This document shows, piece after piece, positions 1,656 to 37,294 of a DNA stretch of 64,000 nucleotides. Positions within the stretch are counted from its first letter, which is position 1; the number at the start of each line of letters is the position of its first letter. The position numbers and the translations under genes were made by a program. Where the stretch lies: the NCBI RefSeq assembly GCF_014898175.1, contig NZ_CP062948.1, forward strand, positions 1,116,001 through 1,180,000, given 5' to 3'. The notes below the pieces were generated by a model. It searched no databases, was not told the DNA's origin, and saw nothing but the letters and a program-made list of their open reading frames with translations. The stretch is from Bifidobacterium lemurum. Lineage in GTDB: Bacteria; Actinomycetota; Actinomycetes; Actinomycetales; Bifidobacteriaceae.

Positions 1656-2384
1656 ATGTTCAGAGTCGCTGTGGTCGAGGACGAGGATGATGCCGCCGAC
1701 AAGCTGCTTGCCTGCCTGCGCGGCTACGCCGACAAGCATGACGGAATCGCGTTCGATACGGCGGTGTTCGAGGACCCGGTCGGGTTTCTGAAAACGCTGA
1801 GGGCCGGCGAGTGGGACATCGTGTTCATGGATATCGAGATGCCCAATATGGACGGCATGGAAGGCGCGCATCGCTTCCGTGAGATCGACCATGACGCGGT
1901 GCTGATTTTCGTGACCAATATGGCCCAGTTCGCGGCGCAAGGCTATGAGGTGGACGCGTTGAGCTACATCCTCAAACCCTTCTCACCGGCCGATGTGGAC
2001 CGTAAAATCGCCCGCGCCGTCCAGCTGCGCAACCGCGACGCGGAGTCGGTTCTTGTGGCGCATCGCGGCGGCACGCAGCGTCTGCTGTTGCGCGACATCG
2101 CCTATATCGAGGTGCAGCGGCATACGCTGCACTATCACATCGCCAACGGCGTGGTGGATGGGGTTGGCAGTATGAGCGAGGCCGAGGATGCGCTGTCGCG
2201 GCACGGCTTCCTACGGTGCGGCAAGGCGTTTCTGGTGAATATCCGGCATATCGCCGCGGTCGCCGGCAATGAGATCACGCTGGTGAACGGTGAAACGTTG
2301 CCGATCGGACGCGCGTACCGTAGGTCCTTCCTTGAGGCGATGGCGGCCGTGGCTGGGAGGGAGGCGGGCGATGCCAAGGCTTGA
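1656..2384 (+). CDS. LytTR-family response regulator (module 1)
   Basis: This 242-residue two-domain regulator has an N-terminal receiver with the acidic pocket EDED and the phosphoacceptor Asp59 in FMDIEMP. A C-terminal LytTR DNA-binding domain follows (IAYIEVQRHTLHYH ... FLVNIRHI). The ATG at 1656 was chosen because a GGAGCGGAGG ribosome site precedes it and because the protein then begins like its paralogues. An upstream in-frame extension would run through repeat DNA. The stop overlaps the kinase gene by 14 bp, indicating an operon. It probably activates promoters carrying direct-repeat LytTR sites, likely including the GH3 gene two genes downstream; the target is inferred. Confidence 0.92.
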   Translation: MFRVAVVEDEDDAADKLLACLRGYADKHDGIAFDTAVFEDPVGFLKTLRAGEWDIVFMDIEMPNMDGMEGAHRFREIDHDAVLIFVTNMAQFAAQGYEVDALSYILKPFSPADVDRKIARAVQLRNRDAESVLVAHRGGTQRLLLRDIAYIEVQRHTLHYHIANGVVDGVGSMSEAEDALSRHGFLRCGKAFLVNIRHIAAVAGNEITLVNGETLPIGRAYRRSFLEAMAAVAGREAGDAKA

Positions 2385-3732
2385 GTTGGCGGCGTACATC
2401 GCGTTGCGTTTCGTCGACGGATTCATCTTCGAACTGATTGTCGCCGCTGTTGTGGTGGCGTGGTGGCTGCCCCGACGTGAGCGATTCGTTATGCGTGCGG
2501 CGGTGTCGCTGGCTTGCATCGTCACATTGACCGTGTTGACGTATCTGGCGTTGATGCCGATTCGGGATTTCGGTATGGAAATGGTCACTATGCTACGCTT
2601 CGTCGCGCTTTATGCGTGCGCCTATATCGGATTGCTGTGGTGCTGGTCGATCACCGTGTCGCAGGCGTTGTTCTACTTGGTGGCCATGTTGGCGTTGCAG
2701 CATTTTGTGTATTGCGGAAGCCGCATCATGGCGGTGGCGTTGACTCCATTGATCGGCGATGCGAACACATGGCCCGGCGCGCTGACTTGGCTGGCTTCGT
2801 CCTCGATGCTGGTCGCGATCGGATACGTGTGCTTTGGCCGGCCGTTGGTCCGGCGACCTCCCGACCATGTGGGCGTGCGGATCGTGACGGTGTTCTTGGG
2901 ATTGCTGTTGTGCATCAACGTCGTTTCCGTGCTGTTCGACAGTCTGTCGGCGGCGTTGGTGGCGGATTATCCGCCCGTGCTGGAGATTCTGATGCTGTTG
3001 ATGAGATTCTTCGTCTGTGTGTTCGTCATGGTGGTGTTGGTGGAGTTGGTGAACCGGCGAAGCGCCGAACGTGACAGCGAGGCGCTGCGCCGGATGATGC
3101 ATCAGCAGAAAACGCAGTTGGAAAACGATCGTGAGACCATCGACCTGATCAATGTCAAAACGCATGATCTTAAAAAGCAGCTGGCGTCATTGGGCGGAAG
3201 CCTTTCGCGGGAGCAGATCAGCGAGCTCAGCGCCTTGGCCGGCATCTATGATTCCGCGGTACGGACGGGAAACGAACCGCTGGATGTGCTGTTGGCGGGC
3301 AAATCGCTGATTATGGAGCAGCGGGGTATCCGATTCGAACGCATCATCGATGGGGAGGCGTTGTCGTTCATGCGGCCCGCCGACATCTACGCGCTGTTCG
3401 GCAACGCGTTGGACAACGCGATCGAAGCGGTGGGACGCATCGACAATCCGGACCGACGCGTCATCGAAATGACCGTGCGCAAGAGCAGGGGCATGCTGGT
3501 GGTGCATGTCGAAAATCCCTATGAGGACGTGCTTGAATTCGACGACGGCCTTCCCCGCACCACAACGGGAGACAGTCGATACCACGGGTTCGGCACCAAG
3601 TCGATGCGCATGCTGGCCGAGCAATACGGTGGGGCCATGACGGTGAATGCCTCCGACGGCGTGTTCGTATTGGACATGCTGTTGCCGATGCCCGATGTCG
3701 TTCGTGCCTCCAAATCGCTGAATCTTGCGTGA
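2371..3732 (+). CDS. GHKL sensor histidine kinase (module 1)
   Basis: This 453-residue sensor has about six N-terminal membrane segments in residues 1-230. A helical linker leads to an HPK10-type core: H-box DLINVKTHDLKKQ, N-box FGNALDNAIEAV and G-box YHGFGTKS. The ATG at 2371 follows GGGAGGGAGG and lies inside the end of the regulator gene, so the two are translationally linked. It is paralogous to the kinases at 8103 and 32443, especially around ETIDLIN.K.HD. The context says it transmits an extracellular, probably small-molecule or peptide, signal to the regulator at 1656. A membrane GH3 gene begins 95 bp downstream. Confidence 0.92.
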   Translation: MPRLELAAYIALRFVDGFIFELIVAAVVVAWWLPRRERFVMRAAVSLACIVTLTVLTYLALMPIRDFGMEMVTMLRFVALYACAYIGLLWCWSITVSQALFYLVAMLALQHFVYCGSRIMAVALTPLIGDANTWPGALTWLASSSMLVAIGYVCFGRPLVRRPPDHVGVRIVTVFLGLLLCINVVSVLFDSLSAALVADYPPVLEILMLLMRFFVCVFVMVVLVELVNRRSAERDSEALRRMMHQQKTQLENDRETIDLINVKTHDLKKQLASLGGSLSREQISELSALAGIYDSAVRTGNEPLDVLLAGKSLIMEQRGIRFERIIDGEALSFMRPADIYALFGNALDNAIEAVGRIDNPDRRVIEMTVRKSRGMLVVHVENPYEDVLEFDDGLPRTTTGDSRYHGFGTKSMRMLAEQYGGAMTVNASDGVFVLDMLLPMPDVVRASKSLNLA

Positions 3733-3827: not shown

Positions 3828-6800
3828 ATGGGCGAGAAGAACAAGACGGCTTTGGTCGTGCGCATCGTCAAAACCGTGATCTCCGTGGCCGTGGCCGCGG
3901 TGATCATCGTGGCGATGGTGATGATCAATCCGCAGCTGAGCACCAACAAACTCATCTCCAGCTTGATGGGCTACAACCATCAAAGCGTCGACAACGGCAA
4001 TGCCGACACCAGCGGTGTGAACACGGAGTACTACACCGCCGACTACACGCAGGACAACATCCGCGCGGCGGAGGACGATCTCTACGACCGCATCGCCGAA
4101 GACGGCACCGTGCTGCTGAAGAACGACAACGACACACTGCCGATGTCCACCGACACCACATTCAGCTTCTTCAGCGCCAACAGTGTGGACGGCTCGTCGC
4201 TGACCAAGGGATATCTGGGAGTCCAGGAAACCGTGACCCTCAAGGACGCGTTCACCGCCGCCGGATTCGGCGTCAACGAGACGCTGTGGAACTACTACGA
4301 GTCCGGCGCGGGCGCCGACTACGGCTTGGCGTCCGGCTCCATCAACTATGGCGACGCCGAGGACTTCCGCATCAACGAGGCGCCGCTGTCCGCCCTCGAA
4401 AGCGAAAGCGGACTGCTGGAATCCGTCGAGGGAACCACTCCGGTCTACGTGCTCAACCGTGTGGTGGGCGAAGGCCGTGACATGCCCCGCTCGATGTACA
4501 ACCACGCCGACAGCCAGGAGGACAAGGAGAAGAGCTACATCGAGCTCGACTCCACCGAAGAGGAGATCCTGCAATACCTCAACGACAACTACGACAACGT
4601 GATCCTGCTGGTCAAGTCCAGCGCGGGCATGGAGCTCGGCTGGGTGGAGCAGTATCCCAGCATCCACGCCATCGTGTATTCGCAGGACGTCACCAACGCG
4701 TTGGCCAAGGTGTTCTCCGGCGAGGTGAACCCCTCCGGCAAGACGGTCGATACCTTCGCCGCCGACGCGCTCGCTTCGCCGGCCGCCCAGAACTTCGGCA
4801 GCTTCCAGTATGTCGACGAGGACGGCAACCTCACCAAGTACAACTATGTGGACTACGCCGAGGGCATCTACGTGGGCTACAAGTATTACGAGACCCGCTA
4901 TGAGGACAAGGTGCTGGGCCAGGGCAACGCCGGCGACTACGACTACGCCGCCGAGGTCGTGTATCCCTTCGGCTACGGCCTGAGCTACACCGATTTCGAG
5001 TGGACCGACTTCGCGGTGTCCAACGACGGCGATGAGTTCACCGCCACCGTGACCGTGACCAACACCGGTGACGTGGCCGGCAAGGACGTGGTGGAACTCT
5101 ATGCGCAGAGCCCCTACACCGACTATGACAAGGCCAACGCCGTGGAGAAGGCGTCCGTGAGCCTGGTCGGCTTCGGTAAAACCGCGGAACTCCAGCCCGG
5201 TGAAAGCGAAACCGTGGAGATCACCTTCGCCAAGGACCAGCTCAAGTCGTACGACTACACCACCGCGAAAACCTACATCCTCGACGCTGGAGAATACCGT
5301 TTCACCGCCGCGACCGACGCGAACGCCGCGGTGAACAATATTCTGGCCGACAAGGGCATGACCGTGGCCGACGGCATGACCGCCGAAGGCGACGCCGCTC
5401 TGGTCTCCAGCTGGACTCCCCAGAACACGGAGGTCGACACCACCACCTTCGCCACCGACACTGAAACCGGCGTTGAAATCACCAACCTGTTCGATGACGC
5501 CTCCGATCCGGAGGTCACCTATCTGACCCGTTCCGACTGGACCGGCACGTTCCCGCAACGTTACGGCGAGGCTTCGGATGAGATCAACACCTGGGGCAAC
5601 GAGATCAACTGCACGGACGCAGACGGCAACAACGCCTCCTGCACGTGGGTCAAACCCGCCAGCGACGAGCTGATCGCCCAGTTGGACAGCACCGATTCCG
5701 GCACCGACGTGGATCGCGACTCAATCACGGACACCCCGACCTTCGGCGCGAACAATGGTCTGACGGTCGCTGACATGCGCGGACTCGACTACGACGACGC
5801 CCAGTGGGACGACCTGCTCGACCAGCTCACCAAGGACGACTACACCCAGCTGATTTACTTCTCCGGCTATGGCGTGGACTACATCAGCTCGGTCCAGAAG
5901 CCCTTCCAGACCGACGCCGACGCCGCCAACGGCTGGTTCTACGGCGGCACCGGCAAGGGATATCCCAGCATCATGATGCTCGCGCAGACCTGGAACGCCG
6001 ATCTGGCCGAGGAGCTCGGCGAGATGATGGGCAACGAGGCGCTGCTGGGCGGTGCGGACGGATGGTACGCGCCGGCGATGAACATCCACCGCACCCCTTT
6101 CTCCGGCCGTAACGGCGAATACTATTCCGAGGATCCCTTCATGTCCGGCATGATGGCCTCGTTGGAGGTCAAGGGCGCGGCGAGCAAGGGCGTCTACTCC
6201 TACATCAAGCATTTCGCGCTCAACGATCAGGAGAACCACCGCGGCGACCGTCCGGGCAATTATTCCGTGACCACCTGGTCGAACGAGCAGGCGATCCGCG
6301 AGATGTACGTCAAGCCCTTCGAGATGTGCATGAAGCTCGGCGACCAGGAGATCAACTACGTCAAACAGAACGCGGACGGCACCTATGAGAACGCCACCGC
6401 CGAGGTTCCGGTCTCCATGGCGCTGATGACCTCCTTCAACCGCGTCGGCGCGACGTGGGCGGGCGGCAACCACTCGCTGATCCAGGAGCTGGTGCGTGAC
6501 GAATGGGGCTTCAACGGCCTGATCATCACGGACAATGCGAACACCGGCGTGTTCATGAGCCCCTACCAGATGCTGGAGGCCGGAGCGGATATCAAGTTAC
6601 TCAACGTCTCGGAGGACCCCTCCGGCGAGGAGCTCGACCTGAACGATTCCGCGACCTACCATTACGCCCGTCAGGCCATGCACCACCTGCTGTACACCGT
6701 GGCGAACACGAAGTGCATGAACGGCGCGATGCCAGGTGCCAAGTTCACCTTCTACAACCAGATGAAGGTGATGCAGGTCGCCTTCAACACGGTGTGCGGC

Positions 6801-6935
6801 GTGCTGCTCGCCCTGCTGGCCTTCTTCTCCGTGTGGCGCTGGCTGCCGTGGACGATCCGCCGCGTCGCCGCCCGCAAACAGCGCCGCGCCGATCGTAGGG
6901 CCGCGAAGAAGGAGGCCAAAGCCAACAACCAGTAA
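3828..6935 (+). CDS. Membrane-anchored GH3 glycosidase, reversed domain order (module 1)
   Basis: This 1035-residue protein is a family 3 glycoside hydrolase with the domains in the order seen in Ruminococcus albus and Butyrivibrio beta-glucosidases. The alpha/beta GH3_C-like domain comes first (about 60-378), then FnIII (about 390-500), then the TIM-barrel (about 640-960). A membrane helix lies at about 8-33 and another at about 980-1003, followed by a basic tail, so the body is tethered at both ends. Candidate nucleophile Asp902 (LIITDNA) and acid/base Glu215 (VVGEGRD) are present, as are GRNGEYYSEDP and IKHFALND. The usual substrate-gripping DGP motif is missing; TDADAANG stands in its place. 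RBS AAAAGGAA. It is likely exported; the substrate is unknown. Confidence 0.88.
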   Translation: MGEKNKTALVVRIVKTVISVAVAAVIIVAMVMINPQLSTNKLISSLMGYNHQSVDNGNADTSGVNTEYYTADYTQDNIRAAEDDLYDRIAEDGTVLLKNDNDTLPMSTDTTFSFFSANSVDGSSLTKGYLGVQETVTLKDAFTAAGFGVNETLWNYYESGAGADYGLASGSINYGDAEDFRINEAPLSALESESGLLESVEGTTPVYVLNRVVGEGRDMPRSMYNHADSQEDKEKSYIELDSTEEEILQYLNDNYDNVILLVKSSAGMELGWVEQYPSIHAIVYSQDVTNALAKVFSGEVNPSGKTVDTFAADALASPAAQNFGSFQYVDEDGNLTKYNYVDYAEGIYVGYKYYETRYEDKVLGQGNAGDYDYAAEVVYPFGYGLSYTDFEWTDFAVSNDGDEFTATVTVTNTGDVAGKDVVELYAQSPYTDYDKANAVEKASVSLVGFGKTAELQPGESETVEITFAKDQLKSYDYTTAKTYILDAGEYRFTAATDANAAVNNILADKGMTVADGMTAEGDAALVSSWTPQNTEVDTTTFATDTETGVEITNLFDDASDPEVTYLTRSDWTGTFPQRYGEASDEINTWGNEINCTDADGNNASCTWVKPASDELIAQLDSTDSGTDVDRDSITDTPTFGANNGLTVADMRGLDYDDAQWDDLLDQLTKDDYTQLIYFSGYGVDYISSVQKPFQTDADAANGWFYGGTGKGYPSIMMLAQTWNADLAEELGEMMGNEALLGGADGWYAPAMNIHRTPFSGRNGEYYSEDPFMSGMMASLEVKGAASKGVYSYIKHFALNDQENHRGDRPGNYSVTTWSNEQAIREMYVKPFEMCMKLGDQEINYVKQNADGTYENATAEVPVSMALMTSFNRVGATWAGGNHSLIQELVRDEWGFNGLIITDNANTGVFMSPYQMLEAGADIKLLNVSEDPSGEELDLNDSATYHYARQAMHHLLYTVANTKCMNGAMPGAKFTFYNQMKVMQVAFNTVCGVLLALLAFFSVWRWLPWTIRRVAARKQRRADRRAAKKEAKANNQ

Positions 6936-6998: not shown

Positions 6999-7044
6999 AT
7001 CATATTTAGTGGATAGGTTCCCTCATCCTGAATGGAACTTATCC

Positions 7045-7118
7045 CGTCATCCCGAGCGGAGTCGAGGAATCTCGTTCGCGGAGATCCTTCGACTCCGCTC
7101 CGCTGCGCTCAGGATGAC
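7045..7118. repeat. Inverted GTCATCC...TCGAAGGATC-type repeat, copy 1
   Basis: GTCATCCCGAGCGGAGTCGA on the left is mirrored by TCGACTCCGCTCC...AGGATGAC on the right. Related copies lie at 31503-31598 (full) and 52722-52764 (half). This resembles the widespread intergenic REP-like sequence built on GGATCCTTCGACTCCGCTCAGGATGAC. Confidence 0.6.
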
Positions 7119-7174
7119 GCATGGGAGGCTTTGCTTCGCTGAAAGTGTCGGCGGTAAAGCCGGCTGTGGTTTCA

Positions 7175-7398: not shown

Positions 7399-8106
7399 GT
7401 GATCACCATCGCGATCGTGGATGACGAGGCCGCCGACGCCGCGCAGACCACGGAACTCGTGGACCGGTACTACGAGCATGACTCCTCGCGCTACGCCATC
7501 ACGCGCTACGCCGACGGCGAGTCCTTCCTCAACCAATACTCGGCGCAATTTGACGTGATCTTCCTGGACGTCGACATGCCCGGCATGGACGGCATGGAGG
7601 TCGCGACGCGCCTGCGCGAACTCGACGCGCATGTGGTGCTGGTCTTCACCACGAAAGTGGTGCGCTACGCCGCCACCGGCTATGACGTGGACGCCATCGG
7701 CTACCTGCTCAAACCGTTGAAATACTTTCCCTTCGCGCTCAAAATGCGAAAAATCGAGGAACTGGTCGCCCAACGACGGAACGTGACCGTCACCCTCTCC
7801 ATCGAAGGCGAAACGCACTTCCTCTCATCGCATGATATTCAGTACGTGGAGGTTATGCGCCACGAGGTGACCTACCACACGGCCGACGGCGCATGGAAGG
7901 TGTGGAGCAGTCTCAAAGAGGCGACGGAATCGCTCGCCGAGGCGAACTTCGCGCCCTGCAACCGTTACTGCCTGGTCAACCTTGAATGGGTCAAAGCCGT
8001 GGTCGGCGACGAGGTGATCGTCGGCGGGAACAGACTGCCCATCAGTCGAGCGAAGAAGAAACCCCTCATGCAGGCGCTCGCCGACTATTACGGAGGGCGG
8101 GGATGA
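7399..8106 (+). CDS. LytTR-family response regulator (module 2)
   Basis: This 235-residue protein has a receiver domain (acidic residues VDDE, phosphoacceptor Asp57 in FLDVDMPGMDGM, conserved Lys in LLKPLK). It is joined to a LytTR domain (IQYVEVMRHEVTYHT ... YCLVNLEWVKAV). The GTG at 7399 is preceded by GGAGAGGAG at good spacing. The stop overlaps the kinase start by 4 bp (ATGA), so both are made from one transcript. It is a paralogue of the regulators at 1656 and 31728. It is expected to control the GH3 gene that follows its kinase, but no LytTR direct repeat could be assigned with confidence. Confidence 0.93.
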   Translation: MITIAIVDDEAADAAQTTELVDRYYEHDSSRYAITRYADGESFLNQYSAQFDVIFLDVDMPGMDGMEVATRLRELDAHVVLVFTTKVVRYAATGYDVDAIGYLLKPLKYFPFALKMRKIEELVAQRRNVTVTLSIEGETHFLSSHDIQYVEVMRHEVTYHTADGAWKVWSSLKEATESLAEANFAPCNRYCLVNLEWVKAVVGDEVIVGGNRLPISRAKKKPLMQALADYYGGRG

Positions 8107-9404
8107 CGCTGTTCCCATTCGCGTATTTTTACCCGTTCATCGTCGAGCTGTTATGTGCGACGGCGCTGTTCTCCACGCATTTCGCATGGCGTCGTTCCTG
8201 GCGGCTGGTGCTGATTCCGGTGGCGGTATGCGTATGCGCTCCCGCTTTCACGCTGTTTTTGACGGGGTTGAACGGCGGCGCAAGCTGGAGATCCGACCGG
8301 ATAGCGTTGTATCACGCTCTATGCGCGGTTGTGGTCATCGCACTGATCCGTTGCTGCACGCGCGCCTCTTGGCTGGAATCGTCGATCGCCGTCGTGCTCG
8401 GCTATGCCGTGCAGCACATGGCCTCCGATGTGGCGACGTTGGTATGGCTCGCCTGTGGGTACGACATCTACGAGGGGTACTACTCGGGGCATGGAATGCA
8501 GCGTCTCGCCATATATGCGGTGCTGTATTGCATGGTCTACCTGTGTGTGGGGCGGCATTCCCGCATCGACCATGAGAAGATTCGCAGCGGCGCCATGTGG
8601 ATCATCGCCGGTGTCGCCGTGTTGATATTGGTGATTGTGGCGCATCTGGCGCTGATTCGGCAGCTTCCGGAATCGGCGCAGGCGGTCGGTTATTTCTATG
8701 ATTTGTTATGTACGATGCTGAGTTTGTGCATGCTGCTGCTGGTTTCCGCCAATGACAGGCTTTCGACCGACCTGGCCCTGCTTAGGCAGGCGGATCGGCT
8801 GAAACAGGAGCATTATGAACTGACCCGCGAGACCATCGACCTGATCAATATCAAATGCCATGATTTCCGCAAATCGGTGGCCACATTGTATGCGGAGAAC
8901 GGCGCACCGCCATCGGCGGACGCCGTGCGCAAAGTGGAGGACAGCCTGCGCGTGTACGACGCGATCTTCCAAACCGGCAGCGATTCGCTGGATGTGATTC
9001 TCACCGAGAAAAGCCTGTATTGCTCCGCGCATGGCATCACGCTCGACTGCATGGCCGACGGCCGTGATTTGGGGTTTCTCGACGATGCGGACCTCTACTC
9101 CCTGTTCGGCAACATTCTCGACAACGCCATCGAAGCGGTGCGGCAATTGGACGATGGGGACCGGCGCGTGATCGACATGACGGTGAAAACGGTCGGCGGC
9201 CTGCTCACCATCGAAGAGCGGAACTTCTATCGGGGAACGCTGTCGTTCCAAGACGGGCTGCCCGTCACCACCAAAGAAGACCGGCGGTACCACGGTTTCG
9301 GCATGCGTTCCATCGTCAACCAGGTGCGCCAGCATCACGGTGAGATGAACGTGCGGGCGGATGATGGCGTGTTTTCGCTGACGATCGTCATCCCCCTGCC
9401 CTGA
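8103..9404 (+). CDS. GHKL sensor histidine kinase (module 2)
   Basis: This 433-residue protein has about six membrane helices in residues 1-220, then a linker and an HPK10-type kinase core. The core carries DLINIKCHDFRKS with the phosphoacceptor His, the N-box FGNILDNAIEAV and the G-box YHGFGMRS. Its ATG overlaps the regulator stop (ATGA), indicating coupled translation. The sensor half is the least conserved part among the four kinases here, so each may see a different signal. The downstream neighbour, 185 bp away, is GH3 gene 2. No agrB/agrD-like peptide-processing genes were seen near it. Confidence 0.92.
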   Translation: MTLFPFAYFYPFIVELLCATALFSTHFAWRRSWRLVLIPVAVCVCAPAFTLFLTGLNGGASWRSDRIALYHALCAVVVIALIRCCTRASWLESSIAVVLGYAVQHMASDVATLVWLACGYDIYEGYYSGHGMQRLAIYAVLYCMVYLCVGRHSRIDHEKIRSGAMWIIAGVAVLILVIVAHLALIRQLPESAQAVGYFYDLLCTMLSLCMLLLVSANDRLSTDLALLRQADRLKQEHYELTRETIDLINIKCHDFRKSVATLYAENGAPPSADAVRKVEDSLRVYDAIFQTGSDSLDVILTEKSLYCSAHGITLDCMADGRDLGFLDDADLYSLFGNILDNAIEAVRQLDDGDRRVIDMTVKTVGGLLTIEERNFYRGTLSFQDGLPVTTKEDRRYHGFGMRSIVNQVRQHHGEMNVRADDGVFSLTIVIPLP

Positions 9405-9589
9405 TCGTTCGGACGGAACGTCTTTCTGCGAACTGTTCGTGCGTGATTGCCCGCAGCTCGTGCGTTCTTCCAAGTGGCGCGCCTGCGTTTTTCCATACAC
9501 TGACGCCAAGCGTGATCGTACCGCAATGTTGCGGTCGCGCTGGAATCAGTCGGCAAGGACGCTGATGCCACGATAGAAGGAGAACGAAC

Positions 9590-12544
9590 ATGGCAAAAAA
9601 CAAGGTTCGAAAGAAGATGTCCAACAAGGTGTTCCTCGCCTTGTGGATTCCACTGGTGGTGATTCTCACCGCCGTCACGCTGGTGGCCAACGTCGCCATT
9701 GGCGCGTTCCACAGCACAATCGAGAATTTTATGGGCGGCGGCACGTATACCGCGGAAAATGCCAGCGACCAGCAGGACTGGGACACCACCTACTATGAGC
9801 AGGAGTACGACTCCATCGAAGAGGCGATGGCCGCCTCGACCGGCACCATCAACATCATCGCCGAAGAAGGCATGGTGCTGTTGAAGAACGACGGCAGCCT
9901 GCCGTTGGAGCCGACCAAGGTCACGCTGCTGGGCCGCGGTGCCGCCGATCCAATCTACGGCGGCACCGGCTCCGGACACACGCAAACCGATGAGGTCATC
10001 GACATCAAAACGTCGCTGGAAGACGCCGGCTATGAGGTCAATCCCACGCCGTACGCGCAGCTTGCCCAGTACGCCGAGGAACATTCCACGGAGAACGGCG
10101 GCCGCATCAGCATATCGTTCCTGCCCGGCGAGGACAATTCCACGTACTACATCGGCGAAATGCCGGTGGACCAGTACTCCCAGGAATCTTTGGATTCGTT
10201 CGATGAGTACGCCGGTGCCGGCATCGTGGTGATCGGTCGCGTGGGCGGCGAAGGCGGCGATCTGCCCCGCGATATGGAGGGCTGGGATGAGAACTATGTC
10301 GACGGGCAGCATATTCTCGAACTCAACCAGGACGAGAAGGATCAGATCGCCCTTGCCAAGCAGCATTTCGACAAGGTGGTCGTGCTGGTGAACGCCTCCA
10401 CGTCGCTGGAACTCGGCGAATTGGAGGATGATCCGGAGATCAACGCGATCGTGCAGACCGGCGCCCCGGGTGCCACCGGTTTCAGCGCCATCGGTAAAAT
10501 CCTGTCCGGCGAAGTGAATCCGTCCGGCCACACCGTCGACCTGTTCGCCGCGGACTTCACCCAGGATCCGACGTTCGTGAATTTCGGCAACAATGAGTAT
10601 GCGAACGACTCCGAGGACGCCAAGGGCTACTTCGTCAACTATGAGGAAGGCATCTATTACGGCTACCGTTATTACGAAACGGCCGCCGAAGAAGGATTCA
10701 TCGATTATGATGCGGCCGTCGTGTACCCGTTCGGATACGGCCTGAGCTACACCACCTTCGACTGGGAAGTGGTGGGCCAGGAGCTCGGTGACGTGGACGG
10801 CGACATCGAATTGCAGGTCAAGGTGACCAACACCGGCGATATGGCGGGCAAGGACGTGGTGCAGATGTACTACACCGCCCCGTACATCACCGGCGGCATC
10901 GAGAAATCGCATGTGGTGCTGGGCGATTTCGTCAAAACCGACGAACTCGCGCCGGGCGAATCGCAGACCATCACGCTGTCCATGCCGGTGGAGCAGATGG
11001 CCTCCTATGATTTCGTTGACGCCCAGGCGTACGTGATGGACGCCGGCACTTACGAAATCAAGCTGCAGACCGATTCACACAACCTCAAGGACGGTGTGGA
11101 CGTCATCGATTACAATCTCGCCGATACGGTCGTGTTCAGCGACGGACGCGATAGCGACGACACCGCCGCGACCAACCAGTTCGACGACGTGTCCGAACCG
11201 TTCCTGGACGGCAGCAAAACCACGCTCTCGCGAGCCGATTTCGCCGGCACCTTCCCGCAGACGCCCGACGAAGCGGATATGACGGCTTCCGAAGAGACGC
11301 TCGCCGCCATGCAGCCGTATGACGCGACCGCCGAAAACGCGGGAGTCGAAGCTGAGATGCCGACGACCGGCGCGGATAACGATGTGCGGTTCTCATCGCT
11401 TCGCGGACTTGATTACGACGATGAGCTGTGGGACACGTTCCTCGACCAGCTCACCGTGGAGGAAATGTCCGAACTGGTGCTCGACGGCGCATACCGCACG
11501 AACGGCATCGAACGCCTCGGAAAGCCGGGCGCGGTCGATTACGACGGTCCCGCCGGCTTCAGCTCCTTCATCAACACCAGCGTGTATGGATCCGCATTCC
11601 CCACGGCGGTGCTGATCGGACAGACGTGGAGTGAGGAGCTCGCCCATGAGCTCGGCAACGCGGCCGGTGACGAGGCCATGGCGTTGGGCATCAACGGCTG
11701 GTATGCGCCCGCGGTCAACATCCACCGTTCGCCGTTCGCCGGCCGCAACTTCGAATACTATTCGGAGGACCCGGTGCTATCCGGCGTGCTGGCCACCTCG
11801 GTCGTCGAGGGTGCGGGCGAAAAGGGCGTATATACCTACACCAAGCATTTCGCGCTCAACGACCAGGAGACCAACCGCGATCAGAACGGCCTGTTCACGT
11901 GGGCGAACGAGCAGACGATCCGCGAGATCTATCTCAAGCCCTTCGAAATCGTGGTCAAGACCAGCCAAATCGAAGTGCCCTATCTGACCGAGGATGGCGA
12001 ACGCCAGACCACAACGGTGGGCGCGCTGGGCATCATGAGCTCGTTCAACCGTCTCGGCAACACATGGAGCGGCGGCTCGTCCGCGCTGCTGAACAACGTG
12101 TTGCGCGCGGAGTGGGGCTTCGAAGGCACCGTCGTGACGGATATGGCGGCGGTCAGCGCCTACATGTCCCCCGATTGGGGCATCGCGGGCGGTTCGGACC
12201 TGCAACTGTCGTGGATGACGATGAAGCCGATCACGGATTCCACCAGCGCCATCGCGGTCGAACGTCTGCGCACGGCTTCGCACAATATCCTCTACACCGC
12301 CGTGAACTCCAATCTGATGAACGGATATGCTCCCGGTGCCTCGATGAAGTATCATCCGGCTTTGTGGGAGACCATGGTGAAGGTCGTGACGGGCGTGATG
12401 GTGCTGCTTATCGCAGCCTCGATCGCATGGATGGTGATTCGCGTGCGTCGCAATCGCAAGCCCAAAGCGGTGCTGAGCGTGACGTCCACCGGGGCGGACG
12501 AGCCGCTCGGCGGGGCGGATGCTCCGAACCAATCGGCCGAATAA
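9590..12544 (+). CDS. Membrane-anchored GH3 glycosidase, reversed domain order (module 2)
   Basis: This is a 984-residue GH3 enzyme with an N-terminal helix at about 18-40. The GH3_C-like domain with candidate acid/base Glu221 (GGEGGDLPRD) comes next. FnIII starts soon after YPFGYGLSY at about 376. The TIM barrel (about 600-900) holds DGPAGF, GRNFEYYSEDP, TKHFALND and candidate nucleophile Asp851 (TVVTDMA). A second helix lies at about 930-953. Of the three GH3 proteins here it keeps the most canonical active-site motifs, so a beta-glucosidase-like activity is most likely for this one. The ATG follows AGAAGGAG. It is the last gene of module 2 and is followed by a strong terminator. Confidence 0.9.
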   Translation: MAKNKVRKKMSNKVFLALWIPLVVILTAVTLVANVAIGAFHSTIENFMGGGTYTAENASDQQDWDTTYYEQEYDSIEEAMAASTGTINIIAEEGMVLLKNDGSLPLEPTKVTLLGRGAADPIYGGTGSGHTQTDEVIDIKTSLEDAGYEVNPTPYAQLAQYAEEHSTENGGRISISFLPGEDNSTYYIGEMPVDQYSQESLDSFDEYAGAGIVVIGRVGGEGGDLPRDMEGWDENYVDGQHILELNQDEKDQIALAKQHFDKVVVLVNASTSLELGELEDDPEINAIVQTGAPGATGFSAIGKILSGEVNPSGHTVDLFAADFTQDPTFVNFGNNEYANDSEDAKGYFVNYEEGIYYGYRYYETAAEEGFIDYDAAVVYPFGYGLSYTTFDWEVVGQELGDVDGDIELQVKVTNTGDMAGKDVVQMYYTAPYITGGIEKSHVVLGDFVKTDELAPGESQTITLSMPVEQMASYDFVDAQAYVMDAGTYEIKLQTDSHNLKDGVDVIDYNLADTVVFSDGRDSDDTAATNQFDDVSEPFLDGSKTTLSRADFAGTFPQTPDEADMTASEETLAAMQPYDATAENAGVEAEMPTTGADNDVRFSSLRGLDYDDELWDTFLDQLTVEEMSELVLDGAYRTNGIERLGKPGAVDYDGPAGFSSFINTSVYGSAFPTAVLIGQTWSEELAHELGNAAGDEAMALGINGWYAPAVNIHRSPFAGRNFEYYSEDPVLSGVLATSVVEGAGEKGVYTYTKHFALNDQETNRDQNGLFTWANEQTIREIYLKPFEIVVKTSQIEVPYLTEDGERQTTTVGALGIMSSFNRLGNTWSGGSSALLNNVLRAEWGFEGTVVTDMAAVSAYMSPDWGIAGGSDLQLSWMTMKPITDSTSAIAVERLRTASHNILYTAVNSNLMNGYAPGASMKYHPALWETMVKVVTGVMVLLIAASIAWMVIRVRRNRKPKAVLSVTSTGADEPLGGADAPNQSAE

Positions 12545-15045: not shown

Positions 15046-15059
15046 CACTGTGCTGCGAG

Positions 15060-15132: not shown

Positions 15133-15161
15133 GTATATTGGCCGGAGCCGCAGCACATAGA

Positions 15162-25180: not shown

Positions 25181-25389
25181 TACCTGACTCCTTACGTGTG
25201 CTAGATGCAATAGTATCGCTGAAATGCCAACGTTTAGAGAGGACCATGTAACAAAATAGAGCTGGTTTCGGGGGTGAATTGTCACATTACAGATTCGTTT
25301 TGAAAGGTGGCTTGTCGCGTTATAGAGCCCGATTGGCGATCGATTTGTCACAATGAGGCCTGCGCACGGGGTGGTGGCTGAGAGCGGGG

Positions 25390-25501
25390 CGTGCGACTTT
25401 TCCGAACATGGGTCATGTTCGATTTTCGCGGTGTTTCGTTGGAATTCCAACGTTTGTGGGATGGTTATAGTGAACATGAGATGTTCGAAAAGGTCGCACG
25501 G
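25390..25501. repeat. GTGCGAC-CGAACAT triple-dyad element, copy 2
   Basis: CGTGCGACTTTTCC, then GAACATGGGTCATGTTC (25404-25420), the central dyad CGTTGGAATTCCAACG (25437-25452), then GAACATGAGATGTTC and AAAAGGTCGCACG (to 25500). This is the cleanest copy. It separates nuclease R2 from the acetyltransferase gene. Confidence 0.75.
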
Positions 25502-25554
25502 ATGAATGGCGCAACGGTGCCCGTGCGACCCCGACCCGCAAAGGAGTCCCAACG

Positions 25555-31478: not shown

Positions 31479-31502
31479 TTAGCGCGCGTACGCGCGCATT
31501 GC

Positions 31503-31598
31503 CGTCATCCTGAGCGAAGGCCACGGGCCGGAGTCGAAGGATCTCCATCTTACAACAAAGAGATCCTTCGACTCCGCTACGCTCCGCTCAGGATGACG
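31503..31598. repeat. Inverted GTCATCC...TCGAAGGATC-type repeat, copy 2
   Basis: GTCATCCTGAGCGAAGG and GAGTCGAAGGATCTC on the left are mirrored by GAGATCCTTCGACTC and CGCTCAGGATGAC on the right, around an approximately 16-nt centre. It lies between the exporter gene and module 3. Confidence 0.65.
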
Positions 31599-31727
31599 TT
31601 GGAAGCTTGGGCGCGCGCCAATTCGCCGAGGGGGCGCGGCTTTTCCACGGGCGGGGCATAATGGGAAGGGTAAGTCTGCCCGGCTTGAGCAGTGTTGCCA
31701 GAAGACTGAACCATGGAGAGCGAAGCA

Positions 31728-32450
31728 GTGATTCGAATTGCCGTCGTCGAAGATGATCCGGGGTATGTGTCCGTCGTGGAGCGGTATCTCGCCCAATTCG
31801 AGCAGGAACGTGGCGAAAGCATCAGCCATGTGGTGTTCGATGACGGCGCGAAGATCGCCGCCGACTACCAACCTGTGTTCGACATCGTGCTGATGGACAT
31901 CGAAATGCCCGGAATGGACGGCATCTCGGCGGCACGCGAGATTCGCCTGGTCGACCGGGACGTCATCATCATCTTCATCACCAGCATGGCCCAATACGCG
32001 ATCGAGGGCTACACGGTGCGGGCGCGCTCCTACGTGCTCAAACCCATCAACTACTACGGTTTCGCCATGGAGCTGCAAAGCGCCATCGACGACATCGCGC
32101 GGCGCGAGGACCGCGGCAAGTCGCTGATCTTCACCTCCAAGGACGGCATGCACAAGGTGCGCGTCAGCGACATCCTCTACGTGGAGAGCAAACGCCACGA
32201 CATGTTCATCCACACGGTCGACGGCGTGATCCGCATCCGCGAGTCGATGAAGAATCTGGAGGAGACGCTGCAACCGCACCATTTCGCACGCTGCAGCGTC
32301 AGCTATCTGGTCAACCTGGCGCATGTGACCGGCATCGAGGAGGGCCGCGACGCCATCGTCGGCGGGGAGCGGCTGCCGGTCAGCCGGCAGAAGGGCAAGG
32401 AATTCATCGCGGCGATGGCCGCGTATGTGGGAGGAGGCGACCATGAGTGA
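31728..32450 (+). CDS. LytTR-family response regulator (module 3)
   Basis: About 240 residues. The receiver domain has VEDD and phosphoacceptor Asp57 in LMDIEMPGMDGI, with the conserved Lys in VLKPIN. The LytTR domain contains ILYVESKRHDMFIHT and CSVSYLVNLAHVTGI. The GTG at 31728 is preferred: it gives the same MIRIAVVED opening as its paralogues and has GGAGAG seven nt upstream. An ATG at 31713 would add five residues. It overlaps the kinase gene by 8 bp. The role parallels the regulators at 1656 and 7399. Confidence 0.92.
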   Translation: MIRIAVVEDDPGYVSVVERYLAQFEQERGESISHVVFDDGAKIAADYQPVFDIVLMDIEMPGMDGISAAREIRLVDRDVIIIFITSMAQYAIEGYTVRARSYVLKPINYYGFAMELQSAIDDIARREDRGKSLIFTSKDGMHKVRVSDILYVESKRHDMFIHTVDGVIRIRESMKNLEETLQPHHFARCSVSYLVNLAHVTGIEEGRDAIVGGERLPVSRQKGKEFIAAMAAYVGGGDHE

Positions 32451-33810
32451 GCTCGTCAACCAGATGCTGATCAGTCCCGTGCTCTATGTGGTGTGCTGCG
32501 GACTGGTCGTGGCCTGCGCGCTGGCCACCTCCTCGTCACGGGCGGCCACGCGTCGCGACAGGGCGTGGCGGATCGGCTGGTCGGTGCTGCTGGCCGTCGC
32601 GGTGGTGGCGGTGGATGCCGTGTTCGTGGACAGCAAAACCGCGTGGACCGCCGTGGAGACGCCGATGTGCTTGGTGGCGCTGTGGGTGTTTGCCGTTGCC
32701 ATCATGCGCATGGGCATCGCCACCGGGACCTACGTGGCGGTGTGGTCGCTGTCGTTGGTCTCGCCGATTTCGGAGGTCGCCAGTCTGTTGACGATGTGGT
32801 TCGACGGATGGGTGCGGTGGTGCGTGCGGTTGGCGGCGTTGGCGTTGATGATGGCGGTGCTGTACGTCTGCTGCCGCCGATGGTTGGCCCCGCAGCTGCA
32901 GATGTCGGGACGGTATCTGATGAGCCGCCGCAAGGTGCTGTTCACGCTGGTGATGGTGGCCGTGTTCATGACGGTCGCCGATTACCGGGTGATTTTCTGG
33001 CTGATCGGCAGTTCCGAACCGTCCAATATGGTGCCGGCGTTCCGCGTACTGGTGGAGACGCTGTGCTGCATCGTGCTGTACCTGCAGAACGACATCGAAC
33101 GCCGTCAGAAGGCGCAGCTCGAGCTCAATATGGTGCAGGAGCTGTGGCGGCACCAGCGGCACCAGTACCAGGTGTCCAAAGAGACGATCGACGTGATCAA
33201 CCGCAAATGCCATGACCTCAAATACCAGGTCGCGGCGTTCCGCGCGACGCACGGCAACGCGGACATCGACCGCCAGCTGGGCGAGATCGAGCATTCGGTC
33301 GATGTCTACGATTCGGTGGTGAGAACCGGCAATCCGGTGCTCGACGTGGTGCTCACCGAGAAAAGCCTGTACTGCGAGGCGCAGCTCATCACCATGACCT
33401 GCATGGCGGACGCCTCACGTCTGGATTTCATCGAACAGAGCGACCTGTACGCGCTGTTCGGCAACGCGATCGACAACGCGATCGAAAGCGTGATGAAACA
33501 GTCCGATCCGGACAAGCGGGTGATCCAGGTCTCCGTGCGCCCCGAAAACGACTTCCTGCTGATCCAGGTGCGCAACTACTGCGACGAGCCGATCGAGCTG
33601 GTCGACGGACTGCCGCTCACCTCGAAAACCTCCGAGCCCGGATACCACGGGTACGGTCTGCGCGGCATCCGCTATACGGCGGAACGCTACGGCGGCACGA
33701 TGGGCATCCGCACGGACGGCAAGGCCTTCACCCTGCAGGTGCTGCTTCCGCTGCCGGTGCGTCAGCCGCGGCGGGATGAGGATCGCGAGCCGCAGGACGC
33801 GGCCCGCTAG
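32443..33810 (+). CDS. GHKL sensor histidine kinase (module 3)
   Basis: This 455-residue HPK10-type sensor has about six or seven membrane helices in the first 220 residues, then the core with DVINRKCHDLKYQ (phospho-His), FGNAIDNAIESV and YHGYGLRG. The ATG at 32443 follows GGGAGGAGG and overlaps the regulator's end. It ends in a charged tail (QPRRDEDREP). It is closest in design to the kinases at 2371 and 8103. A GH3 gene follows after 202 bp with its own strong ribosome site, and then a purine-type permease. Confidence 0.92.
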   Translation: MSELVNQMLISPVLYVVCCGLVVACALATSSSRAATRRDRAWRIGWSVLLAVAVVAVDAVFVDSKTAWTAVETPMCLVALWVFAVAIMRMGIATGTYVAVWSLSLVSPISEVASLLTMWFDGWVRWCVRLAALALMMAVLYVCCRRWLAPQLQMSGRYLMSRRKVLFTLVMVAVFMTVADYRVIFWLIGSSEPSNMVPAFRVLVETLCCIVLYLQNDIERRQKAQLELNMVQELWRHQRHQYQVSKETIDVINRKCHDLKYQVAAFRATHGNADIDRQLGEIEHSVDVYDSVVRTGNPVLDVVLTEKSLYCEAQLITMTCMADASRLDFIEQSDLYALFGNAIDNAIESVMKQSDPDKRVIQVSVRPENDFLLIQVRNYCDEPIELVDGLPLTSKTSEPGYHGYGLRGIRYTAERYGGTMGIRTDGKAFTLQVLLPLPVRQPRRDEDREPQDAAR

Positions 33811-34012
33811 TCGCCAGCTGCTAACCACCGGCCGCAAGCCTACGGTCGCGAATTGCCGGCCATCGGCGATCCGGCGACGGAAGTTGCCGCCATCGATACC
33901 AATCGTGCCATCCGGCACGCCTCCCACCTGAACGCTTCCTAAATTGGGTGGCATGTGGGGCCCACCGGCCTCGCATCCACCCCAAGAGCAAAGAAGCAAA
34001 GGAGGGAAGAGC

Positions 34013-37000
34013 ATGTCCGACAAACGCAAGCATCTCGTGAAGAACGGCATCATCGCCACGGCATGGCTGGTTATCGTCATGCTGGTGTTCAACACGATGC
34101 TCACCACATTCGGCAGCACCCTGATCAACTACATGGGCATCGGCACCGTCACGGCCGGCGGCGACGCCGAGGTGATGACCGAGGAGGAGACCCTGGCCGA
34201 GGGCCGCGAGGTCAACACCGAGCTGGAAAGCGAAGGCGCGGTGCTGCTGCGCAACGAGAACAACGCCCTGCCGCTCGAAAAGGGCAGCAAGGTCACGATC
34301 CTCGGCGCGATGTCCTACAACTACGTCAACGGCGGCACCGGTTCGGCCGGCGGCAAGTACGACGAGTACACCTACACCATGAAAGAGGCCTTCGACGGCA
34401 GCAAAACCGAAGGCGAGGGCGTGAGCACCGAGCAGTACCTCGATGTGAACGAAAAGGCGTGGAACTGGCTTGAGGAGGCCGTCGGCGGCGAACGCAACGC
34501 GAACACCACCGGCGAGTACGTGGGCCACACCGGCACCGGCGAGGAGACCACGTTCACCGGCTCCGACTACGCCGAGAACAAGGACGCCTACGGCGACGGC
34601 GACTGGGGCGGATACAAGCGCGTCAACGAGTTCTCCAAAAGCGTGTACGAGAACCATAAGGACGACTTCATGGCCGACGGCTACAACGACACCGTCATCG
34701 TGACCTTCGGCCGCTCCGGCGCCGAGGGCGCCTCCCCCGTCATGGACTACGACGGCGACGGCAAGGCGTCCACCGGCACCACCTACCTGCAGCTGAGCGA
34801 GGACGAGAAGGACCTGCTCAAGTTCTGCGCCGAGAACTACTCCAAGACGATCGTGCTGATCAACTCCTCCGCCGCGATGGAGCTGGGCGAGATCGAGCAG
34901 GAGGAGTACGGCGTGGACGCCTGCCTGTGGATCGGCCACCCCGGTGAGGCCGGCCTCGTCGGCGTCGCCCAGCTCCTGACCGGCGAGGTGAACCCGTCCG
35001 GCCACCTCGTGGACACCTACGCCTACGACATGTCCACGATGCCGTCCTTCTACAACAACGACGACAACAAGTACACCAACGTCGAATCCATCACCACCGG
35101 CTTCGACAAGTCCAGCAACTTCGGCTACTACCAGTACGAGGAGGGCATCTACGTCGGATACCGCTTCTACGAGACCGCCGACGCGGAGGGGTATTTCGAC
35201 TCCGAGGCGTTCACCAGCCACGAGTGGAAGAACGGCACGGCCTCCGGCTACGACGAAGTGGTGCAGTATCCCTTCGGCTACGGCCTGAGCTACACCACCT
35301 TCTCGCAGGAGGTGACCGATTCGGACGTCTCGCTTGAGGCGCACGGCACGAACAGCATCAGCGTCAAGGTCACCAACACCGGCGACGTGGCGGGCAAGCA
35401 GGTCGTGCAGCTCTACATGGAGGCGCCCTACGACCAGGACGACTCCCTGGGCATCAAGGGCACGGGCCTGCAGAAGTCCGCGAAGGTGCTGATGGGCTTC
35501 CAGAAGACCGGTCTGATCGAGCCCGGCGAATCCGAAACCGTCACCATCGAATTCGACACCGACGACCTCGCCTCCTTCGACACCTACGGCACCGGCGTGT
35601 ACGTGCTGGAGAAGGGCGACTACAAGTTCCACATCGGCGAGAACGCGCATGAGGACGCCACCGATCCGGTGGAGACCTCTCTGGCCGACACCATCGTCTA
35701 CGACGAGGACGGCGTCGGCGCGCGCGACAGCGACGAGCAGGTCGCCAGGACCTCGATGAGCGACGTGGACGCCGGCGACGGCAACATGCTCGACGGCTAC
35801 CTCAACCGCAGCGACTTCGCGGGCGGCATGGAGACCATCATGCAGCACGAATCCAGCTGCAAGGAGGAGGCGCTGAGCGACAACGCCGTGGCCGCGCTGG
35901 CCGTGCCCGCCAAGGGTTCGACCGACTACACCTACGAGACGTACGAGAACGGCGAGAAGGTGACCAAAACCGTCAAGAAGTACGTGGGCGGCGCCAGCTA
36001 CCTCGCCTACTCCGACGAGGAGAATTGGGAGGGCCTGACCCAGGACGACGAACGCTACCTCTACGACGACGCGAACGAGGACCATGCCATCGAATACGGC
36101 AAGACCTACTACGTCGTGGTGGACGACGACGGCAACGCGGTCCAGGATGAGGACGGCAACTACCAGGTGACCGAGGAGGAGACCTCGATGCGTCTCGACA
36201 TCGACGCGCCGATCCTCGCCGACCTCGACTACGACAACGAGATCTGGGCCTATCTGCTGGACCAGACCACGCTCGAGGAGCAGATCGCCGTCGCCGGCGG
36301 ACTCGGCTGGCAGACCCCCGCCGTCGAATCCGTGAACAAGGAGCAGGAGGCCGTGGTCGACGGCCCCGGCGAGTCCGGCAACGGCAACAACAGCTACGGC
36401 ACCAACACCTGGTGGAGCTCCGCCGTGGTGAACGCCTCCACCTGGAATCCGTACCTGATGGAGAAGCTGGGCGAGGCATACGCCCACCAGTCCATCAAGA
36501 ACGGCCTGTCGGGCGCCTACGCGCCGGCCATGAACACCCATCGCACGCCGTTCGGCGGCCGTAACTTCGAGTACTTCTCCGAAGACGGCTTCATCGGCGG
36601 CAAGATGGGCGCGGCCGAGGTCACCGGCCTGCAGTCCAGCGGCGTGTCCGTCTACATCAAGCACATGGCGATGAACGACAACGACACTAACCGAGACGGC
36701 AACATCACCTGGTTCTCCGAACAGGCGGCCCGCGAGATCTACCTCAAGGACTACGAGATCTGCGTCAAGGAGCTGTTCGTGGTCGACGAGGCCAACGAAA
36801 CCGGCACCTTCGTGGACGGCGAGAACGTGCTCGGCATCATGGGCTCGCTCAACCGCGACGGCATCTCGATGTTCCACCAGGGTCTCTACCAGACGATCCT
36901 GCGCGGCGAATGGGGCTTCAACGGCCTGGTCATCACCGACGGCGTCGGCCCGTACCCGTGGGTCATGACCCCCGGCGCAGGCCTGTTCGGCGGCGTGGAA

Positions 37001-37294
37001 GGCCAGCTCGGCGGCTCCGCCGTCACCGCCTACTACGACCAGGAAGGCGACGCGACCTCCACCAACTACGGCAAGTACCTGCTGCGCAACTGCACCAAGC
37101 ACATGCTGTACCAGAACGCGCGTTCCGCCACCTCGGCCGCCAGCACCGACAACAGCGCTTGGAAGACCTGGATGGTCGCGGGCGATGTGGCCTTCGGCGT
37201 GGCGATCGTCGCGGTCGTGGCCACCTGCATCGCGATCCCCGTGGTCCGCAGCCGCAAGGACGCGCGCGCCAAGGTGACCATCTCCGGCGAGTGA
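34013..37294 (+). CDS. Membrane-anchored GH3 glycosidase, reversed domain order (module 3)
   Basis: This is the largest of the three at 1093 residues. A membrane helix at about 11-33 is followed by the GH3_C-like domain with candidate acid/base Glu238 (SGAEGAS). FnIII begins soon after YPFGYGLSY at about 417. An acidic insertion (about 625-730, rich in Asp, Glu and Tyr) not found in the other two comes next. The TIM barrel follows, with VVDGPGES, GRNFEYFSEDG, IKHMAMND and candidate nucleophile Asp976 (LVITDGV). A second helix lies at about 1053-1076. AAAGGAGGG precedes the ATG at 34013. The insertion and the changed barrel end (TDGVGPYPW) suggest a substrate differing from its paralogues. Confidence 0.88.
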   Translation: MSDKRKHLVKNGIIATAWLVIVMLVFNTMLTTFGSTLINYMGIGTVTAGGDAEVMTEEETLAEGREVNTELESEGAVLLRNENNALPLEKGSKVTILGAMSYNYVNGGTGSAGGKYDEYTYTMKEAFDGSKTEGEGVSTEQYLDVNEKAWNWLEEAVGGERNANTTGEYVGHTGTGEETTFTGSDYAENKDAYGDGDWGGYKRVNEFSKSVYENHKDDFMADGYNDTVIVTFGRSGAEGASPVMDYDGDGKASTGTTYLQLSEDEKDLLKFCAENYSKTIVLINSSAAMELGEIEQEEYGVDACLWIGHPGEAGLVGVAQLLTGEVNPSGHLVDTYAYDMSTMPSFYNNDDNKYTNVESITTGFDKSSNFGYYQYEEGIYVGYRFYETADAEGYFDSEAFTSHEWKNGTASGYDEVVQYPFGYGLSYTTFSQEVTDSDVSLEAHGTNSISVKVTNTGDVAGKQVVQLYMEAPYDQDDSLGIKGTGLQKSAKVLMGFQKTGLIEPGESETVTIEFDTDDLASFDTYGTGVYVLEKGDYKFHIGENAHEDATDPVETSLADTIVYDEDGVGARDSDEQVARTSMSDVDAGDGNMLDGYLNRSDFAGGMETIMQHESSCKEEALSDNAVAALAVPAKGSTDYTYETYENGEKVTKTVKKYVGGASYLAYSDEENWEGLTQDDERYLYDDANEDHAIEYGKTYYVVVDDDGNAVQDEDGNYQVTEEETSMRLDIDAPILADLDYDNEIWAYLLDQTTLEEQIAVAGGLGWQTPAVESVNKEQEAVVDGPGESGNGNNSYGTNTWWSSAVVNASTWNPYLMEKLGEAYAHQSIKNGLSGAYAPAMNTHRTPFGGRNFEYFSEDGFIGGKMGAAEVTGLQSSGVSVYIKHMAMNDNDTNRDGNITWFSEQAAREIYLKDYEICVKELFVVDEANETGTFVDGENVLGIMGSLNRDGISMFHQGLYQTILRGEWGFNGLVITDGVGPYPWVMTPGAGLFGGVEGQLGGSAVTAYYDQEGDATSTNYGKYLLRNCTKHMLYQNARSATSAASTDNSAWKTWMVAGDVAFGVAIVAVVATCIAIPVVRSRKDARAKVTISGE

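Follow-up and report, generated by a model that had tools for sequence, protein, structure and literature searches.

Candidate LytTR/GHKL switches beside doubly anchored GH3 glycosidases in Bifidobacterium lemurum and other bacteria

We analysed a 64,000-nucleotide stretch of the Bifidobacterium lemurum genome (contig NZ_CP062948.1, positions 1,116,001 to 1,180,000; the whole stretch is called the window below), in which a two-component regulatory pair repeatedly lies beside the gene for a large glycosidase. A sequence-only reading of this DNA had described three such blocks, and Pfam searches confirmed each of them in its place: a response regulator (Response_reg plus LytTR domains) is followed by a GHKL histidine kinase (HATPase_c_5) and then by a family GH3 glycoside hydrolase whose domains run in the reversed order GH3_C, Fn3-like, GH3_N. 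The blocks span 1389/1656-6935, 7399-12544 and 31713-37294 (Table 1). All three GH3 proteins score above the curated Pfam cut-offs for both GH3_N and GH3_C, and each has one hydrophobic segment close to either end by hydropathy; we refer to such proteins as anchored GH3s. The kinase of a fourth module lies at the edge of the window, and the rest of this module, a regulator (C1:1115233-1115955, where C1 marks coordinates on the contig) and a divergent anchored GH3 (C1:1112107-1115031), lies just to its left. The start of the module 1 regulator at 1656 is an ATG preceded by GGAGCGGAGG, and the real start codons of the module 1 and module 2 kinases may be further downstream than 2290 and 7986, respectively. 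For the module 3 regulator we give the beginning of the open frame, 31713, rather than the start at 31728 given by the sequence-only reading.

Table 1. Regulatory modules and candidate operator in the window
Feature	Position in window	Strand	Basis
Module 4 GHKL histidine kinase	15..1352	+	Pfam; window's left edge
Module 1 response regulator (receiver + LytTR)	1656..2384	+	Pfam; open frame from 1389
Module 1 GHKL kinase, multi-pass membrane sensor	2290..3732	+	Pfam, hydropathy, alignment
Module 1 anchored reversed GH3 (GH3_C, Fn3-like, GH3_N)	3828..6935	+	Pfam, hydropathy, active-site residues
Module 2 response regulator (receiver + LytTR)	7399..8106	+	Pfam
Module 2 GHKL kinase	7986..9404	+	Pfam; AlphaFold pLDDT 81.7, pTM 0.67
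Candidate LytTR operator of module 2	9435..9464	+	GTTCGTGCG and GCTCGTGCG, 21-bp period
Module 2 anchored reversed GH3	9590..12544	+	Pfam, AlphaFold, PDB fold matches
Module 3 response regulator (receiver + LytTR)	31713..32450	+	Pfam
Module 3 GHKL kinase	32425..33810	+	Pfam
Module 3 anchored reversed GH3	33944..37294	+	Pfam, hydropathy, active-site residues

The three blocks belong to a larger set. In the 2.97-Mb genome, which is a single contig, Pfam searches returned 27 GH3_N match rows, 19 LytTR matches and 17 GHKL rows representing 16 kinases, and anchored reversed GH3s were found at 21 loci, one of them split into two frames. Fourteen of the 16 kinases have an anchored GH3 no more than 3.5 kb away; in 20,000 trials of random placement, on average 1.08 and never more than 6 came that near. 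Counted from the enzyme side, 14/21 anchored GH3s have a GHKL kinase within this distance, compared with none of the five other, non-anchored GH3 genes of the genome, one of which adjoins a LytTR regulator. Gene orders vary: regulator, kinase and GH3 may follow one another on a single strand, or the GH3 may be divergent from the regulator. With 21 GH3 loci and 16 kinases, the arrangement has multiplied in this genome. Chance and the recent tandem copying of one block were both rejected as explanations, as the modules are scattered, differ in orientation and are also present in other phyla. At one locus, L068:11924-12880 (C1:1033924-1034880; L numbers denote individual loci), a LytTR protein that gave no Pfam receiver match is encoded 79 bp from an anchored GH3 in divergent orientation, and no GHKL kinase lies within 12 kb of it.

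A survey of 13 genomes of the family, B. lemurum included, found 21 full-length anchored GH3s in B. lemurum, one in a congener and about seven in each of two others; a fifth genome has a broken anchored GH3 and the remaining eight have none. In the five genomes with an anchored GH3, 25/30 GHKL matches have a full-length one within about 5 kb, and the eight genomes without contain four GHKL matches in total. Relatives were taken as the best 80 loci from one scan with the module 2 GH3, and these come from Actinomycetota, Clostridia, Bacilli and others. Regulator and kinase are both present at 44 of the best 80 loci, many of which are on short contigs, and at 25 of the 36 that have 8 kb on either side. 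The arrangement singled out by the sequence-only reading is found in related genomes of other phyla too, and these counts support the view that the association of regulator, kinase and anchored GH3 is real and extends well past one lineage.

The active site of the enzyme is conserved. In an alignment of 112 anchored GH3s of 900-1130 residues, the nucleophile Asp, the acid/base Glu and the sugar-pocket Arg, Lys and His are present in all (112/112), and two further pocket residues in most (Asp 105/112, Arg 103/112). The catalytic positions were matched by counting to D242 and E458 of TnBgl3B, which we take to be its nucleophile and acid/base, respectively. Hydrophobic segments occur at both ends in 107/112. 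By eye, a twin-arginine-like N-terminus replaces the usual first helix at L092 (Atopobium sp. UBA2090) and L140 (Thermophilibacter provencensis). The AlphaFold model of the module 2 GH3 (pLDDT 87.5, pTM 0.88) has terminal helices at residues 12-39 and 925-954, and its best PDB fold matches, 5wug and 5k6m, are reversed GH3 structures. By domains, active site and modelled fold, the anchored GH3 is a predicted beta-glycosidase of reversed domain order. In 79/112 aligned proteins the nucleophile is followed by Y or F, and in 6/112 by W, as in 2x40; the lost Trp was dismissed as a special mark of these enzymes because the canonical GH3s 5xxl and 5tf0 also have Y or F.

The kinase profile matched two PDB entries, both of them AgrC cytoplasmic constructs, over the kinase half only. 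H292, presumably the phospho-acceptor His from its H-box position, is invariant in alignments of 23 and 28 rows. The AlphaFold model of the module 2 kinase has some 6-7 membrane-type helices ahead of the kinase half and no extracellular domain; among the best 50 matches of a fold search with it, we saw kinase-domain entries and recognised none for the membrane sensor, which is not probative. In a tree of 67 kinases, one clade, here clade I, holds nearly all loci with a canonical GH3 or with genes for a GtrA-like protein, a GT2 glycosyltransferase or UDP-galactopyranose mutase. One locus with GtrA, L064, lies outside clade I, and the clade includes some loci with an anchored GH3 alone. The window's own kinases are not in clade I; one clade I kinase encoded elsewhere in the genome groups with a kinase of Bifidobacterium asteroides. 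Sensor halves within clade I, in rows from two phyla, share a mean identity of 35% (minimum 24%) compared with 16% among other kinases, and kinase halves 45% compared with 39%; the rows were chosen by hand (16 and ten, respectively), and those of clade I include relatives up to 90% identical, which raises the clade I mean. Since the sensor half is conserved between phyla, its sequence points to a putative fixed ligand for clade I.

Kinases and neighbouring GH3s were also compared for relatedness, after the removal of genes that were broken or short and of neighbours that were not mutual. Among the 13 pairs from B. lemurum there is no correlation (r=0.04, p=0.35); over all 55 pairs there is one (r=0.34, p=0.0002), which may be explicable by shared species ancestry. 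GH3s of this genome that are 79% identical adjoin kinases of different clades. Because the own-genome distance sets are unrelated, a tight pairing of kinase and enzyme is unsupported, and strict co-evolution of the two was rejected.

If the regulators act on the adjacent enzymes, their binding sites might be visible upstream of the GH3 genes. We looked for repeats in 20 of the 21 upstream regions of anchored GH3s in B. lemurum (the broken gene being left out) and in 102 regions from relatives. Among spacings from 13 to 40, near-perfect repeats are most frequent at 21 bp, in 5/20 own regions (other spacings, at most 1) and 12/102 of the relatives' (other spacings, at most 4), where shuffles lead one to expect 0.15 and 0.98, respectively. 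The mean best 21-bp match is 7.50 in own regions compared with 6.22 (standard deviation 0.19) in dinucleotide shuffles, and 7.11 compared with 6.30 (standard deviation 0.09) in relatives; upstream of other long frames it is 6.62 (140 own) and 6.77 (505 relatives), and the difference between anchored GH3 and other upstream regions gives Mann-Whitney p=0.0018 and p=0.00087, respectively. For single regions, most repeat p-values are not significant. Among the five own regions with such a repeat is that of module 2: its candidate operator (9435-9464) lies about 126-155 bp upstream of the GH3, with a -10-like TACACT, found by eye, at 9496-9501.

A single operator consensus for all modules was rejected, as pairwise matching gave one clear family plus a weaker second. 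A whole-genome scan for AAYCTGTC repeats with at most one mismatch found four sites at separate loci, each a short way ahead of a GH3 gene; three of these genes encode anchored GH3s and the fourth a canonical GH3, with GtrA after it. One of these sites is flanked by an anchored GH3 gene on one side and by the regulator gene of clade I, at C1:1056339, on the other. In 1.65 Mb of relatives' DNA there are eight sites with at most two mismatches, five of which lie upstream of GH3s in the same orientation (in a Clostridiales metagenome-assembled genome, Streptococcus suis, two Demequina and Nesterenkonia), one of the five resting on GH3 genes at L082 and L091 added by hand from Pfam. By comparison, 60 shuffled motifs gave a mean of 0.28 sites upstream of GH3s and ten other spacings gave 0. 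The predicted AAYCTGTC operator is one that recurs in Bacillota and Actinomycetota. The second family, ACGGCTCRTG, scores 34-35, where six simple shuffles reached at most 33-34. A further pair, CGTCATCCCG (score 37), was discarded as an operator; it resembles a dispersed 'RHPERS' repeat instead.

On balance we favour a reading in which the regulator and kinase form a local LytTR transcription switch for a surface GH3, and consider it rather probable. The GHKL kinase would detect a ligand through its small multi-pass membrane domain and phosphorylate its LytTR regulator; this would bind a pair of direct repeats, spaced at a 21-bp period, ahead of the GH3 promoter and turn the gene on. The GH3 would be a retaining beta-glycosidase, held at the outer face of the membrane by a helix at each end. 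In clade I, the sensor is conserved between phyla, the candidate operator also marks further GH3 genes, and many loci have GtrA, GT2, mutase and canonical GH3 genes as well. Computation directly provides the gene order, the family membership, the conserved active site, the operator-like repeats and the recurrence of these repeats. From these we infer phosphotransfer, activation rather than repression, and the outside location of the GH3. Presumably the signal would be not a secreted peptide but a glycoside or its product, or else a glycan that is lipid-linked or on the surface.

The sequence-only reading had each pair controlling its own enzyme. The part concerning control of the GH3 is backed by the enrichment of 21-bp repeats, the module 2 site and the shared operator, but the rule of one pair per enzyme is too strict, because a single candidate operator is found at four separate loci, ahead of three anchored GH3s and one canonical GH3. 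What the sequences support is a probable co-regulation in a looser form than one pair for each enzyme. Several observations weigh against the switch. Seven of the 21 anchored GH3s in the genome have no GHKL kinase within 3.5 kb (two of the seven adjoin a LytTR gene alone), and upstream of the window's own GH3s we found no 21-bp repeat operator for module 1 and only a weak one for module 3. Compared with real upstream regions, the excess of repeats matching at 9/10 or better is modest, at 5/20 versus 6/140 in B. lemurum (Fisher p=0.0053) and 12/102 versus 26/505 in relatives (p=0.015), and in relatives the repeat precedes GH3s that have a regulator-kinase pair in the locus (6/60) no more often than those that lack one (6/42). 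The AAYCTGTC motif was derived from this genome before it was counted there, and at up to three mismatches it is not commoner than a reversed control. Finally, 5/8 of the relatives' sites lie upstream of GH3s, where shuffled motifs reach 4.

The genes around these loci bear on what the enzyme might act on. Anywhere in the best 80 loci, GtrA-like genes occur at 32/80, GT2 genes at 23/80 and UDP-galactopyranose mutase genes at 13/80 (counts uncorrected for short contigs), and a GH3 of canonical order at 34/80; flank-complete loci contain GtrA in 19/36 and GtrA plus GT2 in 18/36. Such frequencies lend themselves to the tentative suggestion that the anchored GH3 acts on lipid-linked or surface glycans which the cell itself makes with GT2, GtrA and the mutase, and that the kinase reports on such a glycan. 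This suggestion, which we regard as possible but doubtful, would specify the substrate and the signal, and is compatible with the transcription switch. It is further favoured by the three of four own GtrA-like genes (two below the Pfam cut-off) that lie in anchored-GH3 neighbourhoods, by the absence of any sugar-transporter family from 30 scanned window frames (many of which matched no family) and by the near-universal segments at both ends of the enzyme. However, some loci have GH43, GH2 or CBM genes nearby, as in plant-polysaccharide clusters, and the Butyrivibrio examples described below are placed in polysaccharide utilisation loci; the window has no GtrA, GT2 or mutase match and the own mutase genes are far from the modules; and the GtrA matches are close to the Pfam cut-off, while GT2 resembles dolichol-phosphate-mannose synthase weakly. 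The GtrA/GT2/mutase neighbourhood would favour action on own glycans for clade I loci, and the GH43, GH2 and CBM neighbours action on foreign glycosides for other loci. A complete lipid-linked pathway can be imagined, in which GT2 (with the mutase in some species) would charge a carrier in the membrane, GtrA would flip it, and the membrane-tethered retaining GH3, rather than a GT-C enzyme, would move the sugar, or remove it, at the surface; the kinase clade with the conserved sensor would read the state of the pathway and drive the set through the conserved operator, other kinase-GH3 modules being specialised offshoots. Taken jointly, these parts make an unlikely whole.

Three other explanations concern the relation of enzyme and kinase. 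The sequence-only reading had supposed that the GH3 might release or destroy the ligand of the adjacent kinase. The tight adjacency of the two genes would suit such a loop, as would the correlation over 55 pairs, although that can be obtained from shared species history alone. We think the loop improbable: the 13 own pairs are uncorrelated, the 79%-identical GH3s sit beside kinases of different clades, and four Bacilli loci (L105, L106, L115 and L145) have an anchored GH3, a canonical GH3, GtrA and GT2 but neither a LytTR nor a GHKL gene in about 23 kb of DNA examined. L115 has a LysR-type regulator upstream of its GH3, and genes of similar size lie near the GH3s of L105, L106 and L145. The same partner shuffling and kinase-free loci, together with catalytic residues kept in every aligned enzyme, make it somewhat less likely still that the anchored GH3 serves as a co-receptor that binds glycans and touches the kinase in the membrane. 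A GH3 in contact with the kinase would spare the latter an extracellular domain, in agreement with a modelled kinase that has nothing but membrane-type helices before its kinase half and with a GH3 helix at each end. Least probable of all, and very unlikely in our view, is that the modules perform standard peptide quorum sensing, like AgrC/AgrA or ComD/ComE, with glycosidases as incidental targets. The kinase and regulator families are the same, and both PDB matches of the kinase profile are to AgrC. However, a whole-genome search for AgrB (PF04647) at E<=0.001 gave no match (1/14 control genomes matched, below the cut-off), in line with the sequence-only reading, which had seen no AgrB-like gene, and no obvious precursor peptide is present among the short frames of two gaps. 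Agr-type signalling is unlikely for want of AgrB. Moreover, peptide receptors have variable sensors, unlike the clade I sensor with its conservation between phyla.

If the wiring of the transcription switch holds, a conserved membrane sensor would control surface glycosidases in at least two phyla, and AgrC/LytTR-type signalling would act outside peptide quorum sensing. It would also raise the question of what a doubly anchored glycosidase, often encoded near GtrA/GT2 genes, acts on. With candidates for sensor, operator and enzyme now named, the signal is open to direct search.

The 30 further window frames scanned with Pfam include phosphoenolpyruvate carboxylase, glycogen phosphorylase, MscL, ThrE and ROK among their families, as well as MutH-type, methylase and zeta-toxin genes. 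Between the modules, intergenic translations at 7009-7142 and about 31447-31660 repeat the phrase 'HPERS...LRMT', which suggests that these stretches are a dispersed repeat element. At 20363-25552, MutH-family proteins (20363-21832, plus strand; 23195-25552, minus strand) flank a C5 cytosine methylase (21833-23101, minus strand) where the G+C content is lower (0.50 at 20001-24000); this looks like an acquired restriction-modification set. Adjacent tRNA-Ala(TGC) and tRNA-Ile(GAT) genes lie at 15059-15274, with no ribosomal RNA above the Rfam threshold in the window, and 43959-44807 encodes a zeta-toxin-family kinase.

Among known systems, AgrC/AgrA and ComD/ComE likewise combine a GHKL kinase with a LytTR regulator, and AgrA has direct-repeat DNA sites, according to the available text of PMC4227749. 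Unlike these systems, the modules described here have GH3 neighbours, one sensor clade conserved across phyla, and no AgrB match in the genome or precursor found in the gaps. The LytTR Regulatory Systems HdrRM and BrsRM, as the accessible part of PMC6193735 presents them, rely on direct repeats of 9 bp, in most cases separated by 12 bp, immediately before the -35; they resemble our modules in having LytTR direct repeats and a regulator coupled to a neighbouring membrane protein, but a membrane inhibitor stands where we find a kinase plus an enzyme. In Gtr three-component glycosylation, on the evidence of the portions covered of PMC13390465 and PMC7117936, a GtrA flippase works with a lipid-sugar glycosyltransferase and a GT-C transferase. 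The likeness is that GtrA-like and GT2 genes adjoin many anchored GH3s; the difference is that no conserved multi-pass GT-C candidate was seen in 13 loci by hydropathy only, the GT2 in those loci having 0-1 predicted helices. The reversed GH3 structures 5wug/5wvp (Paenibacillus barengoltzii) and 5k6l-o (rumen metagenome) differ from the anchored GH3s, which have a hydrophobic segment at both ends.

The closest precedent is the 2010 genome of Butyrivibrio proteoclasticus (PMC2914790), in which, according to its available sections, three LytTR regulators each lie near a secreted GH3 with a C-terminal membrane helix, in polysaccharide utilisation loci; the authors suggest a common function, the enzymes being controlled by the carbohydrate linkages detected. 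In those sections the account amounts to one genome, three cases and one remark, and shares with ours the LytTR regulator beside a secreted GH3. The kinase family, the N-terminal anchor, the operator, the cross-phylum survey and the GtrA/GT2/mutase context are described here and not in the sections available of that paper. A Roseburia cluster, in the part of PMC5320581 that was covered, has a LytTR regulator and kinase with GH25, GH43 and GH51, not GH3. We found no other account of a unit of regulator, kinase and anchored GH3 in a literature search whose coverage left out most subscription papers and all bioRxiv preprints. Because the Butyrivibrio paper had already remarked on the proximity of LytTR and GH3 genes, the neighbourhood itself is not new; within the literature covered, its breadth, the predicted operators and the GtrA-linked kinase clade appear to be.

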